Below are positions 48,170-53,720 of a stretch of 64,000 bases of DNA, piece by piece. Origin of the DNA: Psychroflexus curvus (lineage in GTDB: Bacteria; Bacteroidota; Bacteroidia; Flavobacteriales; Flavobacteriaceae); NCBI RefSeq assembly GCF_020164585.1, contig NZ_JAIQZF010000004.1:186001-250000 (forward strand), in the 5' to 3' direction. The notes under the pieces are model-generated. The model was not told the origin of the DNA. It worked only from the letters and a program-made list of their open reading frames with translations, and ran no database searches. Numbering within the stretch: the first letter of the stretch is position 1; every line of letters starts with the position of its first letter. The translations under genes and the position numbers were made by a program.

Positions 48170-50119
48170 TTACAAGACCCTGTTCAATTTGTTGGAAATC
48201 AAAACTTCCAAACCATTATATTCCATCGTCTCGCGCATAAGTTCGATATCTACTTCTTCCTTTTGATCTCTTATGACTTCACTCAAATCCTGTACTTTTT
48301 TTCGGATAAGATAACGACGGAGGTTCAAAATGGTTTCCATCACTTCCCTTGGATCCAAAACACTTTTGTCAATCACAAAAATCTCCTGACGCTTCCAGTC
48401 GTGTAGTTGATTTTTTTCATTTTCCATCAAAATAGAAGTTACCTCCTGAGCTAATTCTGGTTTAAGATGATTGACAAACGTATCAACCTTTAAATTGCCA
48501 TCTTTTGCGAAAACTTCAATGATTTGTTCGTATAAGTCTTTGAAAACAGGATTGGAGAACTCAACTTCATCTTCCTGCAATTCAATAAAAATCTTTTCAA
48601 AAACAACATATTCACGTTTTACTTCTACATGTGTATCTTCTTCAAAATCAAAATCAAAATCGATAAAAACAGCAGTTTGATCGCCGTACCTCAACAACAA
48701 CTGAATGATACTTCTTTCCAAAACGTATTGATGATCTACTTTAGAAACAGGGCTTTCCGTTGTTTCTTTGACTACTTCAAGAGGTTTTCGCCTTGTTCCT
48801 CTGCCTGCTTCTTTTCTGTCTTTAGCGAGAATTTGTGCCAGTGTACTAAATAATACATCCTCTGATACATCGAGAAGATTGGAAGAGGTTTGGATATAAA
48901 TCTCCTGGGTAATCTGATCTGGTATCTTGGAAATCGAATTCACAATATCTCTAACCACTTCAGCCTTCTTTACAGGATCTTTTTCTGCATCTTCCAATAA
49001 AAGCGAGGCTTTAAATCGTATAAAATCCTGAGCATTTTTATCGAGATAGGCTTGTAAATCTTCTTGCGAATTGGCTTTCGCAAAGCTGTCGGGATCTTCT
49101 CCTTCAGGAAACAAGCACACTTTTACGTTCATGCCTTGTTCCAAAATCAAATCAATCCCTCGAATAGAAGCTCTCAATCCCGCTGCATCTCCATCAAATA
49201 AAACGGTAACATTGTTAGTCAATCTGCTAATCAGGCGGATTTGCTCAGGGGTAAGTGCTGTTCCAGAAGAAGCCACGACATTTTCAATTCCGGTTTGGTT
49301 AAACTGAATCACGTCCGTGTAGCCTTCCACTAAATAACAATTATCCGCTTTAGCTATAGCCTGCTTAGCCTGGTAAAGTCCGTAGAGCACTTTACTCTTG
49401 TGATAAACTTCACTTTCTGGTGAATTGAGATATTTAGCTTGCTTTTTATCGTTAGTCAGAATTCGACCTCCGAAACCAAGCACACGTCCAGACATGGAGT
49501 GAATCGGAAACATGACTCTACCTTTAAACCTGTCAAAACGTTTTTCGCCTTTAACAATAGCAAGCCCTGTCCTTTCCAAGAATTCCAATTTATAAGCTTT
49601 CGCCAGAGCTTTATCGGTAAACGCCTGCCACTCGTCTGGAGAATATCCGAGATCAAATTTTTCAATGGTTTCAGAAGTAAATCCACGGTTTTTGAAATAA
49701 CTTAAGCCTACAGACTTACCCTCATCGGTATGCAGCATTTGATTGACAAAGAAAGTTTTGGCAAATTCATTGACCAAATACATACTTTCCCTTTCACTTG
49801 CTTTTTCTTTTTCTTCTGAAGACTGTTCTGTTTCTTCGATTTCGATATTGTAGCGTTTTGCCAAATGCTTGATGGCTTCAGGATAAGTGTAATGCTCGTG
49901 TTCCATTAAGAACGCTACTACATTTCCTCCTTTTCCGGAACTGAAATCTTTCCAGATTTGCTTTACCGGAGAAACCATAAAACTGGGGCTTCTCTCTTCA
50001 GTAAACGGACTTAATCCTTTGAAATTACTTCCCGATTTTTTCAGTTGAACGTAATCGCCGATAACTTCCTCAACCCGGGAAATATCAAATACTTTATCAA
50101 TGGTGGTCTTACTTATCAA
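48170..50119 (-). CDS. dnaG: DNA primase DnaG without zinc-ribbon ligands
   Basis: 649 residues. N-terminal zinc-binding-like domain, TOPRIM catalytic core (VEGYTD and LFDGDAAG) and a C-terminal DnaB-binding part. The N-terminal residues that are normally Cys-His-Cys-Cys are Ser37, Thr40, Asp58 and Ser61 (in KGLSPFTEE and WKDFSSGKGG), so zinc is not bound, a known flavobacterial trait. The start is TTG 50119, since no ATG is near; MISKTTIDKVF is the family start. Convergent with nadE. Confidence 0.93.
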   Translation of the reverse strand: MISKTTIDKVFDISRVEEVIGDYVQLKKSGSNFKGLSPFTEERSPSFMVSPVKQIWKDFSSGKGGNVVAFLMEHEHYTYPEAIKHLAKRYNIEIEETEQSSEEKEKASERESMYLVNEFAKTFFVNQMLHTDEGKSVGLSYFKNRGFTSETIEKFDLGYSPDEWQAFTDKALAKAYKLEFLERTGLAIVKGEKRFDRFKGRVMFPIHSMSGRVLGFGGRILTNDKKQAKYLNSPESEVYHKSKVLYGLYQAKQAIAKADNCYLVEGYTDVIQFNQTGIENVVASSGTALTPEQIRLISRLTNNVTVLFDGDAAGLRASIRGIDLILEQGMNVKVCLFPEGEDPDSFAKANSQEDLQAYLDKNAQDFIRFKASLLLEDAEKDPVKKAEVVRDIVNSISKIPDQITQEIYIQTSSNLLDVSEDVLFSTLAQILAKDRKEAGRGTRRKPLEVVKETTESPVSKVDHQYVLERSIIQLLLRYGDQTAVFIDFDFDFEEDTHVEVKREYVVFEKIFIELQEDEVEFSNPVFKDLYEQIIEVFAKDGNLKVDTFVNHLKPELAQEVTSILMENEKNQLHDWKRQEIFVIDKSVLDPREVMETILNLRRYLIRKKVQDLSEVIRDQKEEVDIELMRETMEYNGLEVLISNKLNRVL

Positions 50120-50309
50120 TGGAAAATAATTTAAAATAAAGGTAAAATAAATTAGTTTAAGAAGTTGATAGAATTTGATTAATAGCGCACTCTTTTTTCA
50201 TACAAAGGAAAATAAAAATCATGATAATTAATACTATAATTTTCAAATATATCCTTGTCTAAGACCTATAAATGATACGTTCATTTAGATCAAAAATAAG
50301 TTGACATCC

Positions 50310-50344
50310 AAGTCCTCACAGGTTTTAAAAACCTGTGAGGACTT
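50310..50344. repeat. 35-bp palindrome, dispersed Bacteroidota type
   Basis: Arms of 17 bp match perfectly around a single central A: the left arm begins AAGTCCTCACAGG and the right is its reverse complement. Similar CCTCACAGGTTTT palindromes are found widely in Bacteroidota intergenic DNA. It has no U-run and the adjacent dnaG gene points away, so it is not its terminator. Confidence 0.75.
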
Positions 50345-50440
50345 ACTCCATTCTAATACTTAAATCAAAAAAAATATTTAATCGTCAAAGTCAATGCTAT
50401 TTTTAGATAAGTTTTAAATGTTAAGCTTAGCCGCCTAATA

Positions 50441-50547
50441 TTTCACGCAAAGGCCACTAAGTGCTTTCGCAAAGTTCGTGAAAGCATAGTAACCCTCTAA
50501 AGGCTTAGCGATCTTTGCGGTTTTATCTTTCCGAGCTTTGCTTGATA
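50441..50547. repeat. CGCAAAG repeat unit R1
   Basis: Left end TTTCACGCAAAGGCCACTAAG and right end CTTTCCGAGCTTTGCTTGATA form imperfect inverted ends. The middle reads AAAGCATAGTAACC and GGCTTAGCGATC, shared with R2-R4. Confidence 0.72.
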
Positions 50548-50550
50548 TAT

Positions 50551-50659
50551 TTTCACGCAAAGGGCGCTAAGTGGTTTCGCAAAGTTCGTGAAAGCATAGT
50601 AACCATCCCAAGGCTTGGCGATCTTCACGTTTTTTTGTCTTTGCGAGCTTAGCGAGAAA
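50551..50659. repeat. CGCAAAG repeat unit R2
   Basis: 109 bp with left end TTTCACGCAAAGGGCGCTAA and right end CTTTGCGAGCTTAGCGAGAA. Same orientation as R1 and spaced 110 bp from it. Confidence 0.72.
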
Positions 50660-50692
50660 TTTCTTTGTAGGTTTTGCATGGAATTTTTCATA

Positions 50693-50735
50693 CAATGTCC
50701 GCCCAAGAGTTTACGCAAAGCACGCAAATTAAATA
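50693..50735. repeat. Left half of an interrupted repeat unit
   Basis: TTTTTCATACAATGTCCGCC and ACGCAAAGCACGCAA align with the first 45 bp of R4; the rest of the unit is missing and the GxxExxY gene comes next. Confidence 0.5.
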
Positions 50736-50745
50736 AATGATCGTA

Positions 50746-51123
50746 TCATAAGCCATTTACAACCCTATGAATACCGCTTTTAAGAAATTTGGTATTAAAG
50801 TTAATTAACAAGCCTAGTTTTATATTAGATAGCTTAAGGTAAGTTAATAGTTGAGCGTAATGAACAGGGGCTAAATTTTCTAAGGATTTAATTTCAAGAA
50901 CTAATTTATTTTCAACGACTAAGTCCAACCTATACCCCATATTCATTTTTACTTCCTTATAAACAAATGGCATTGGAACTTGTTGCTGAACCCTTAAACC
51001 TGTTTCTTCTAAATCATATTTTAATGCAGATTCGTAGGTCGATTCTAACAACCCAGGACCAAGGTTTTTATGTAACTCTAGAGCTACTCCTATCACCTGA
51101 TAAGAAAGTTCATTTTCAGTCAT
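50746..51123 (-). CDS. GxxExxY protein (PD-(D/E)XK nuclease-like)
   Basis: 125 residues. The signature GLLESTY (GxxExxY) is at residues 24-30 region GPGLLESTYE, and the catalytic-looking D...ExK pattern is YRLDLVVENKLVLEIKS near residues 70-85. Members of this family are thought to have a PD-(D/E)XK-like fold, but no activity is established. The gene lies between repeat units R2 and R3, with the halves of another unit touching it on both sides. Cytosolic, start ATG 51123. Confidence 0.85.
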   Translation of the reverse strand: MTENELSYQVIGVALELHKNLGPGLLESTYESALKYDLEETGLRVQQQVPMPFVYKEVKMNMGYRLDLVVENKLVLEIKSLENLAPVHYAQLLTYLKLSNIKLGLLINFNTKFLKSGIHRVVNGL

Positions 51124-51177
51124 CCATTATTCAATTGTTGAACTATAAAATTAATAAAGTTCCTTGATAAGATGCAA

Positions 51178-51201
51178 GAGATTTATTCTTTGCCTAGTAT
51201 A
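51178..51201. repeat. Right half of the interrupted repeat unit
   Basis: CTTTGCCTAGTATATTTTCAG at 51188-51208 matches the R1/R2 junction CTTTGCTTGATATATTTTCA, so the end of one unit lies here, on the other side of the GxxExxY gene from its left half. Confidence 0.5.
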
Positions 51202-51202
51202 T

Positions 51203-51309
51203 TTTCAGGCAAAGGCCACTAAGTGCTTTCGCAAAGTACGCTAAAGCATAATAAGCATTTAGAGGCTTGGCTATCTTCACGGATTTATCTTTGCAAGCTT
51301 TGCGAGAAA
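51203..51309. repeat. CGCAAAG repeat unit R3
   Basis: 107 bp; left end TTTCAGGCAAAGGCCACTAA, right end CTTTGCAAGCTTTGCGAGAA. Same orientation as the others. Confidence 0.72.
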
Positions 51310-51335
51310 TTTCTTTGTAGGTTTTGCGTGGTGTT

Positions 51336-51464
51336 TTTCACGCAAAGGGCGCCAAGTAGTTTCGCAAAGGGCACTAAGTGGTTTGGTAAAGTACGCAAAA
51401 GTATAGTAACCATCCCAAGGCTTGGCGATCTTCGCGTTTTTATCTTTGGGAGCTTGGCGTGGAT
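51336..51464. repeat. CGCAAAG repeat unit R4
   Basis: 129 bp; left end TTTCACGCAAAGGGCGCCAA, right end CTTTGGGAGCTTGGCGTGGA. It is about 20 bp longer because the TTTCGCAAAGGGCACTAAG segment is duplicated near the left end. Confidence 0.72.
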
Positions 51465-51492
51465 TTTTTAAATTTAAAAACTTGGAATGGGA

Positions 51493-52470
51493 TTATTTCT
51501 CTCTATCAATCACGTAATCTATCATCAATTGAAGTGAAGCTTTGTAAGGTGAGTCTGGATATTTCTGAAGGATTTCTGAAGCCTCTTCCTGAAAGGCTTT
51601 CATTTTGGTTTGCGCATATTCCAAACCTCCGGAAGATTTTACAAAGTCTATGACTTCATTGACCCGCTGCTTATTTTTGTTGTGATTTTTTACCGAATTG
51701 ATGATCCAGTCTTTATCTTTCTTTGACACCTGATTTAAGGTGTAAATAAGAGGAAGTGTCATTTTCTGTTCCTTGATATCTATTCCTGTTGGCTTGCCTA
51801 TTTTTTGTTCACCATAGTCAAACAAATCATCTTTGATCTGAAATGCCATGCCGATCAACTCTCCAAATTTACGCATGGACTCCACATGTGCAGATTCTGG
51901 TCTTACAGCAGCTGCTCCAAGGCTACAGCAAGCCGCGATAAGCGTTGCTGTTTTTTGACGAATAATTTCGTAGTAAATATCCTCAGTGATGTCAAGACGA
52001 CGAGCCTTTTCAATTTGAAGCAACTCCCCTTCACTCATTTCTCTGACAGCCACTGAAATGATTTTCAATAGATCAAAATCATCATTATCAATAGAGAGCA
52101 GCAAACCTTTGGACAGTAGAAAATCACCTACCAAAACAGCAATTTTGTTTTTCCACAGGGCATTGATGGAAAAGAAACCACGACGCTGATTGCTATCATC
52201 CACAATATCATCATGAACCAAAGTGGCTGTATGAATCAATTCAATAACTGAAGCTCCTCTGTAACTTCTATCATTAACTTCACCATCGGAAACCATCTTG
52301 GCTACCAAAAACACAAACATAGGCCGCATTTGCTTACCTTTTCTGTTAACGATAAAATGAGTGATTTTGTTTAGAAGCGCTACACGGGAAGACATGAAAA
52401 GCGAGAACTTTTTTTCAAAAAGTTCCATCTCATGAGCTATCGGTTCTTTTATTTGTGAGACTGTTTTCAA
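51493..52470 (-). CDS. Polyprenyl synthetase (long-chain trans-prenyltransferase)
   Basis: 325 residues from TTG 52470, which gives the family-like start MKTVSQIKEPI; TTG 52479 would add three residues. Condenses isopentenyl diphosphate into a long polyprenyl diphosphate for menaquinone or lipid carriers. The two Asp-rich motifs are LVHDDIVDDS (about residue 80) and QIKDDLFDYG (about residue 210). Long-chain (octaprenyl-like) is inferred from size. Confidence 0.9.
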   Translation of the reverse strand: MKTVSQIKEPIAHEMELFEKKFSLFMSSRVALLNKITHFIVNRKGKQMRPMFVFLVAKMVSDGEVNDRSYRGASVIELIHTATLVHDDIVDDSNQRRGFFSINALWKNKIAVLVGDFLLSKGLLLSIDNDDFDLLKIISVAVREMSEGELLQIEKARRLDITEDIYYEIIRQKTATLIAACCSLGAAAVRPESAHVESMRKFGELIGMAFQIKDDLFDYGEQKIGKPTGIDIKEQKMTLPLIYTLNQVSKKDKDWIINSVKNHNKNKQRVNEVIDFVKSSGGLEYAQTKMKAFQEEASEILQKYPDSPYKASLQLMIDYVIDREK

Positions 52471-53669: not shown

Positions 53670-53720
53670 AAATTTTCTCGCAAAGCAATCTAAGAAAGCG
53701 CAAAGCACGCAAAGACATGT
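53670..53720. repeat. Decayed CGCAAAG repeat
   Basis: TTCTCGCAAAGCAATCTAAG and GCGCAAAGCACGCAAAGAC lie between rlmN and the next gene. They look like a worn copy of the repeat family at 50.4 kb. Confidence 0.45.

Follow-up and report, generated by a model that had tools for sequence, protein, structure and literature searches.

Repeat array around a GxxExxY gene

The window analysed here is the whole 64,000-nucleotide stretch of Psychroflexus curvus contig NZ_JAIQZF010000004.1. Between two genes whose translations read as dnaG and polyprenyl synthetase, it carries a 125-aa open reading frame (ORF) of the GxxExxY family with two direct repeats on each side. In a 133-nt register the repeats occupy 50421-50553, 50531-50663, 51183-51315 and 51338-51470; the three further copies are 72, 77 and 71% identical to the first, and the starts given for R1 to R4 in Table 1 are TTTCACGCAAAG-type starts. 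The double word CGCNAAGNNCGCNAAG (at most one mismatch) has 13 matches in the window, 12 of them at 50446-51459, and shuffles expect 0.05. An earlier sequence-only reading of this DNA had reported the four repeats, together with a part unit to the left of the gene and an end piece to its right; the repeats are real and were placed correctly, and both pieces are present in decayed form. The array consists of four gene-less units and one decayed gene-bearing unit.

The ORF matches TIGR04256 (GxxExxY; E 7e-43, 145.6 bits, curated cut-off 35) and PF13366 (PDDEXK_3; E 8e-41, 139.6 bits, curated cut-off 22), and the Pfam and NCBIfam search returned solely GxxExxY/PD-(D/E)XK families, with no HUH transposase. 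E27, E77, K79 and Y95 are present in 127 of 127 proteins, D67 and Q91 in 126. The protein belongs to the PD-(D/E)XK superfamily by its active-site D...ExK and its predicted fold, which the model places nearest to Cas4. Cas4 and restriction enzymes are among the nearest structural matches found with Foldseek; our re-ranking covers Foldseek's own matches alone, and a family missing there carries no meaning. The PADLOC match to Cas4 is weak (E 0.007), and a sequence search for solved relatives gave nothing significant (best E 0.36). Counting the window's own genome (G000), which carries two, GxxExxY genes were found in 26 of 60 genomes from the same genus, family and order; a phylum-wide draw of 109 genomes, again with the own genome included, had them in 55.

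Inverted word arrays outside GxxExxY genes

Inverted arrays of short words lie directly outside many GxxExxY genes, the words differing between loci. These arms typically hold three to four copies of a 7-base word, CRCNRA(G/T), mostly at intervals of 8 to 12 bp, and on either side of the gene the words face it. Such flanking of GxxExxY genes exceeds chance by far and spans many phyla, and the arms change with the protein clade. In a first set of loci (132 after 21 were added; 129 counted, three with short flanks being dropped), two-sided inward chains of at least two words were found at 53 of 129 genes and in 2 of 4802 control windows, which come from the same loci and overlap one another, so that Fisher values on them are nominal. 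An inward chain on at least one side was present at 96 of 129 genes against 63 of 4802 control windows; at 13 of 129 genes both sides had chains that face outward. An inverted-repeat score of at least 18 was seen at 43 of 108 genes against 8 of 4832 control windows (L072, L090 and L107 dropped).

The word was picked after the first loci had been seen, and a de novo 7-mer count and a second set under unchanged criteria served as guards. Counted de novo among inward 7-mers, CGCAAAG occurs in 77 of 222 near flanks versus 22 of 1626 far flanks, CACAGAG in 39 versus 7 and CGCTAAG in 31 versus 5. The second set (88 loci, of which 87 had enough flank and were counted, L304 being dropped) combined 28 new loci from the 109-genome phylum draw with the next 60 listed matches by rank, leaving out loci already in the first set (G000, G040, G053) and the G063:C52 match, which lies 41 bases from a contig end; no cross-set pair is at least 95% alike over 500 bp, and two pairs within the second set are (L281/L283, L325/L326). 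Here two-sided inward chains were found at 30 of 87 genes versus 1 of 563 controls, outward chains at 5 of 87, and inverted-repeat scores of at least 18 at 44 of 87 versus 0 of 563. A flanking of GxxExxY genes by repeats above chance, which the sequence-only reading had offered as a check, is thus seen in both sets. Broken-frame loci (L029, L051, L053, L100, L102; L287) were kept in the flank counts and left out of the trees.

The named loci are the best 80 of 546 relatives from many phyla, many of the records being metagenome-assembled, and in 40 of 77 either the chain or the inverted-repeat criterion gives a hit. These are 26 of 54 in Bacteroidota, 3 of 5 in Cyanobacteriota, 2 of 2 in Fidelibacterota, one each in Acidobacteriota (of 4), Chloroflexota (of 2), Chlorobiota (of 2) and Methanobacteriota (of 2), the single loci of Ignavibacteriota, Spirochaetota, Thermodesulfobacteriota and Electryoneota, and one of two records without a phylum. 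Distances between words peak at 8-10, 16, 20-22, 30-32 and 42 (501 near-flank words; the control holds 53 words and 10 pairs), and the median distance from the gene to the nearest word is 26 bp on the start-codon side and 14 bp on the stop-codon side.

Arms change with the protein

On a tree of 127 proteins, the arm labels change less often than the shuffled mean for the spacing class (6 versus 19.1; 64 labelled), the second letter of the word (15 versus 27.8; 93 labelled) and the seventh letter (2 versus 7.8; 95 labelled), each result being reached in 0 of 1000 shuffles. Such shuffles ignore relatedness, against which we set a version with one locus per genomic site (spacing 6 versus 13.8, second letter 9 versus 15.8, seventh letter 2 versus 3.9; 0/1000 each) as well as contrasts within one slot and within one genome. 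The second-set tree gave 9 versus 15.3 for the second letter and 4 versus 12.5 for the seventh (0/1000 each), and 4 versus 6.5 for spacing (10/1000).

Within single genomes the arms also go by protein clade: G052 has CACAGAT arms (L014), 9/10-spaced CGC arms (L227) and 8-spaced CGC arms (L230), and G010 has 8-spaced CGC arms (L243) and CACGAAT arms (L245). In the slot between E2 and E1 (gene names from our reading), the arms beside gx2 proteins (L021, L228, L232) belong to the 9/10 class and include 12-bp steps, and 8-spaced arms stand at the six labelled gx1 loci (L025, L034, L231, L235, L236, L243). No label was given to L035 and L234, whose words are too few, nor to the broken G026 copy. 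Because the gx1 loci may share descent, this contrast counts as two types in one slot and not as nine independent events. The tracking of word letters and spacing with the protein suggests direct recognition.

HUH transposases and four-helix-bundle genes as comparisons

HUH transposases (PF01797) occur in 35 of the 60 genomes. For the sample we went down the list of PF01797 matches that cover 100 or more profile positions, took the first 40 and added the own genome's two long ones. One contig-end match and two G032 copies scoring the same as a copy already included were set aside, which left 39 loci, of which 37 were counted (L379 and L395 dropped). Inward CRCNRA(G/T) chains are absent from both sides of all 37 HUH genes, and 8 of 37 reach an inverted-repeat score of at least 18 with other palindromes. 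The latter shows that the test does see REP-like flanks, and the former that the words belong with GxxExxY rather than with HUH genes; GxxExxY genes also reach the score more often than these HUH genes. An HUH transposase as partner of the words was rejected on this count; L381 alone has a chain, downstream of the gene, and it faces outward. G012 and G009 each have a CGCAAAG stretch some hundreds of bases past an HUH gene and outside that gene's own repeats. Several HUH genes have strong inverted-repeat flanks of their own (L381 and L383, where they are TAGCTCCGTTAGGAGC-like, and also L376-L378, L389 and L394), and these look like ordinary RAYT/REP pairs.

The TIGR02436 family, which we take to be four-helix-bundle proteins without nuclease function, occurs in 43 of the 60 genomes with up to 17 copies per genome; the four-helix-bundle cassettes of these genomes are presumably of the S23p protein type. 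Of 30 TIGR02436 genes, three with broken frames, 14 have an inverted-repeat score of at least 16 in their flanks versus 1 of 569 controls, and 7 reach at least 18 versus 1. These genes (L173-L202) are flanked by inverted arrays mostly of other words, for example TTAGA or GTTGATAGTT-like. This speaks for array-gene-array as a general lifestyle, and the same arrays counsel caution, since not every such gene need be a mover.

Presence and absence of units at genomic sites

A dnaG match was found in 25 genomes of the genus (own included), 15 of which have the polyprenyl synthetase neighbour within the stretch fetched. Array and gene occur together in G000 only, G004 (dnaG 94% identical) has one gene-less unit, and 12 of the 15 have neither unit nor gene; the corresponding stretch of G024 can be read as a decayed gene-less unit. 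The sequence-only reading placed the gene in a split unit, as a cassette inserted in or carried by the array, and proposed looking in relatives for an empty site with an intact unit. Insertion into a split unit is not supported, since gain and loss of the gene are indistinguishable here. On the empty site the outcome is mixed, G004 having a gene-less unit at the locus and the 12 other genomes neither unit nor gene.

The E2/E1 slot could be compared in 27 genomes, G007 and G017 being unreadable at the slot. It holds GxxExxY in 12 (the G026 copy broken) and, as read from translations, four-helix-bundle genes of two kinds in 9, the one in G004, G008, G009, G016 and G003 and the second in G015, G001, G021 and G025; TIGR02436 is among the matches listed at 8 of these 9 places. 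The slot is short and gene-less in G019, G022 and G006, and G014 has an arm-like gene-less stretch. The occupants carry inverted arms of their own (L143-L170, e.g., L145 1000-1501 and L147 1060-1498). In G000 the GxxExxY unit is followed by what appears to be the right arm of the G004 four-helix element.

At the L026 locus, the sequences of nine relatives read as clean in G000, G005 and G020, as a right arm alone in G015, as a decayed gene fragment plus an arm in G025, as arms without a gene in G021, as a CACAGAG-type arm in G008, and as other sequence in G004 and G024. In these comparisons units come and go between related species, and arms can stay behind. A precise insertion junction was not obtained at the dnaG or L026 loci, where the empty sites are too diverged or bear remnants.

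A proposed selfish nuclease-repeat pair

We consider, with a probability of about 0.68, that the gene and the word arrays form one selfish nuclease-repeat pair, in which the nuclease recognises its own arrays and cuts, and the unit is exchanged. An intact unit is estimated at about 0.48 kb, comprising an arm, a gene of about 125 codons and an inverted arm; two tandem GxxExxY genes in G087 (L334/L338; G087:C1:1593381 and 1593858) are 477 bp apart, close to one unit length. In this proposal GxxExxY, as a Cas4/RecB-like PD-(D/E)XK nuclease, would bind its own arm words as duplex DNA, probably in an oligomeric form that extends along the array, and would cut within or beside the arm words, whereupon repair or recombination would copy or exchange the unit at other arm-bearing sites. 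Gene-less units such as R1 to R4 would then be non-coding derivatives or targets of the GxxExxY unit. We infer recognition, cutting and movement by GxxExxY from sequence patterns. That arms lie past the stop codon and that sites turn over suggests exchange of the unit as a whole.

The recognised form is probably double-stranded DNA and not a hairpin, because folding is weak, the distances between words lie close to helical multiples and words are kept between arms better than spacers are. The identity between arms is 0.89 for words versus 0.45 for spacers in the 47 non-identical of 49 alignable loci, a conservation that is partly built in since the words were located by pattern, and it is 0.75 at degenerate word positions. 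Folded as single-stranded DNA, R1 to R4 have z-scores of -2.07, -1.94, -1.24 and -2.01. The repeats can thus fold as had been proposed from the sequence, only weakly, and the hairpin as the recognised thing is not supported; as a selected feature it was rejected, the units folding just 1.2 to 2.1 standard deviations better than shuffles.

Counterevidence and alternative explanations

Several observations weigh against the nuclease-repeat pair, beginning with the weak folding and the built-in part of the word conservation just given. Two-sided chains are missing at 76 of 129 and 57 of 87 genes, where the arms have decayed, use different words or hold no words; almost no words occur in one of the clades of the second set, and the window's own GxxExxY gene has decayed arms. 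No clean recent insertion of a gene-bearing unit, with exact ends or a target duplication, was found among the sites compared. Counting the CGC-type pattern alone, the pattern is present in 17 of 26 genomes with GxxExxY versus 7 of 34 without (P 6e-4), and outside the genus in 5 of 9 versus 2 of 24 (P 0.009), whereas within the genus the figures are 12 of 17 versus 5 of 10 (P 0.42). As to repeats occurring without the gene, the outcome is divided, with an association over the 60 genomes and none within the genus; the dispersed copies described next also speak against a tie between repeat and gene.

The exact CGCNAAGNNCGCNAAG pattern has 33 matches in the own genome, and a dispersed gene-less family there counts 19 copies of 85 to 122 bp with no GxxExxY gene nearby. 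Conservation of this family runs past the arms to an element of about 255 bp with GTAACTAATCAGT ends, which carries the CGCAAAG hairpin in L248, L250, L251, L253, L255, L256 and L258-L261. Both ends are recognised in 7 of 14 copies, the other 7 being without one or both recognisable ends, and among the 7 two-ended copies an 8-bp target duplication is exact in 2 and 7-of-8 in 2. With terminal inverted repeats and target duplications, the family has the marks of a miniature inverted-repeat transposable element (MITE), and the best reading is a MITE-like carrier on which the hairpin rides along. Its own ends and target duplications suggest that another enzyme probably spread it, and we dropped these copies as proof of mobilisation by GxxExxY. 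The GTAACTAATCAGTA end (at most one mismatch) has 9 matches in the genome and 0 on the window's contig. A tandem of gene-less CGCAAAG units was also seen in L249 (G000:C12:466.5-467.4 kb), with no ORF of at least 110 aa overlapping.

This carrier suits an explanation in which unrelated machinery, such as a DDE transposase or repeat recombination, moves arrays and gene while the nuclease rides along or binds the arms to some other end, and so does the similar architecture of TIGR02436 genes, some in the same slot. We nevertheless hold it to be unlikely, because the arms track the GxxExxY protein even between copies in one genome and proteins in one slot, which would not be expected of a mere passenger gene, the GTAACTAATCAGTA ends are absent from the window's contig, and inward words are missing at the HUH genes of the same genomes. 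That the arms are regulatory, either operators for autoregulation or RNA stems that stabilise or process the mRNA, would fit their closeness to the gene, and co-evolution would suit an autoregulator as well; arrays past the stop codon, gene-less units standing alone, the weak folding and the gain and loss of units at sites make this quite improbable.

The structural resemblance to Cas4 and restriction enzymes, together with the weak PADLOC match, might speak for a defence or competition role, in which the nuclease attacks incoming DNA and the arms mark or tune it. We regard this as very improbable: the same arms exist without the gene, and at E 1e-5 the family gave 8 matches among 72,556 plasmid records and none among 50,697 phage records, no systematic search for partner genes having been made. 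Chance or base composition might be invoked because the words are short and AT-rich genomes repetitive; with the same-locus controls, and with 173 matches of CGCNAAGNNCGCNAAG in the 60 genomes versus 9 for the pattern read backwards, it is already refuted and has next to no weight.

Relation to known systems

In RAYT/REP pairs (RAYTs being REP-associated tyrosine transposases), as described in PMC2817692, the gene is flanked by two inverted repeats that co-evolve with the protein, gene-less repeats occur elsewhere, RAYTs are related to IS200/IS605 transposases, and a strong gene-repeat correlation is reported. Compared with these pairs, the GxxExxY system is alike in having a gene between inverted, co-evolving repeats, gene-less copies and arrays beside some genes. 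It differs in that the enzyme is a PD-(D/E)XK nuclease, the repeats are tandem 7-base words, the repeat-gene correlation is missing within the genus, and the HUH genes here have other palindromes; without an HUH gene of its own, the unit does not count as a RAYT. RAYT/REP-like logic with an unrelated enzyme had been suggested from the window's sequence, and the core of that comparison has held: the arms flank the gene in two sets, are inverted and follow the protein clade.

Intervening sequences (IVS) of 23S rRNA, as described in PMC4990558, are selfish elements of about 0.4 kb in 23S rRNA that contain an S23 ORF and are removed from the RNA by RNase III. On that description they share with the GxxExxY unit a very small ORF in a selfish element of about 0.4 kb, and four-helix-bundle cassettes share a slot with GxxExxY; unlike them, the GxxExxY unit lies outside 23S rRNA, and the IVS ORF encodes S23p, not the GxxExxY nuclease.

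The fold and the D...ExK...QxxxY residues, which we take to be the motif of Cas4/RecB-type nucleases, are shared with the Cas4/RecB enzymes (4ic1, lambda exonuclease, AddAB), from which GxxExxY differs in its length of about 125 residues and in being flanked by its own repeats. Rpn recombination-promoting nucleases and TnsA of Tn7 are PD-(D/E)XK enzymes tied to DNA mobility; GxxExxY is another family, and we know of no inverted word arrays around Rpn or TnsA genes. Like MITEs, the gene-less units are short and intergenic with inverted ends; unlike them, the CGCAAAG unit has no demonstrable terminal repeat or target duplication of its own, and many copies ride in the MITE-like element.

The literature on GxxExxY, TIGR04256, PF13366 and IPR026350, as far as the accessible text goes, holds rare mentions, none on repeats, and no function; searches for the PDDEXK_3 name and the repeat strings returned nothing, and topic searches listed nothing on a nuclease-repeat pairing, subscription papers and preprints not being covered in either case. 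We found no published description of the pairing of GxxExxY with word arrays in the literature covered. A cognate DNA array gives GxxExxY a candidate substrate and offers an origin for repeat families otherwise taken as noise. Provided that word and spacing are read by the nuclease, the natural series of protein clades and arrays is a ready set for studying the DNA specificity of a very small PD-(D/E)XK enzyme, and if the pair is real, a lifestyle like that of RAYT/REP evolved a second time around an unrelated enzyme.

More tentatively, and at somewhat less than even odds, the units may form a cross-phylum class of minimal (about 0.48 kb) self-propagating nuclease cassettes, whose inverted arrays would be read as a double-stranded address, cut, and used for homing or exchange between intergenic slots, the four-helix-bundle cassettes being a parallel, competing class. 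Many CGCAAAG-, CACAGAG- and CACAGATT-type genomic repeats would then be addresses of a nuclease cassette.

Other features of the window and of GxxExxY genes

Table 1. Positions of the GxxExxY gene, its arms and the gene-less units in the window.
Feature	Position	Strand	Remarks
GxxExxY gene, 125 aa, PD-(D/E)XK nuclease fold (predicted)	50746-51123	-	putative active site E27, D67, E77, K79, plus Q91, Y95
Stop-codon-side arm of gene-bearing unit	50689-50729	+	decayed first words, then CGCAAAG and CGCAAAT 9 bp apart
Start-codon-side arm, decayed (CTTTGCC and flank)	51178-51201	-	from the sequence
Gene-less unit R1	50441-50548	+	words 50446 (+), 50504 (-)
Gene-less unit R2	50551-50662	+	words 50556 (+), 50614 and 50639 (-)
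Gene-less unit R3	51203-51311	+	words 51230 (+), 51289 (-)
Gene-less unit R4, extra arm segment	51336-51464	+	words 51341, 51363 (+), 51421, 51444 (-)
Decayed left arm	50193-50208	+	MAFFT alignment with start of G004 gene-less unit, same locus
Lone half unit (TTCTCGCAAAG...CGCAAAGCACGCAAAG)	53675-53714	+	between two genes; no partner arm seen, no nuclease gene

The word pair of the stop-codon-side arm lies at 50714-50729, and counterpart arms are present in relatives. Judged from the alignment, the left edge of the array is probably at about 50193, further left than previously placed. GxxExxY matches were also seen within an 883-aa open frame (G083:C9:91044-91385, G111:C1:72354-72692, G095:C22:338277-338615), which would be either a fused gene or a larger gene with GxxExxY inserted in it. 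An Rfam scan of window positions 50100-51600 matched no rRNA family; a sub-threshold microRNA match (24.3 bits, gathering threshold 100) was taken as chance. The stretch at 50310-50344, which opens the region displayed above, is a separate, near-perfect palindrome (AAGTCCTCACAGGTTTTAAAAACCTGTGAGGACTT), and palindromes resembling it occur in the same intergenic region of the relatives L117, L119 and L122.

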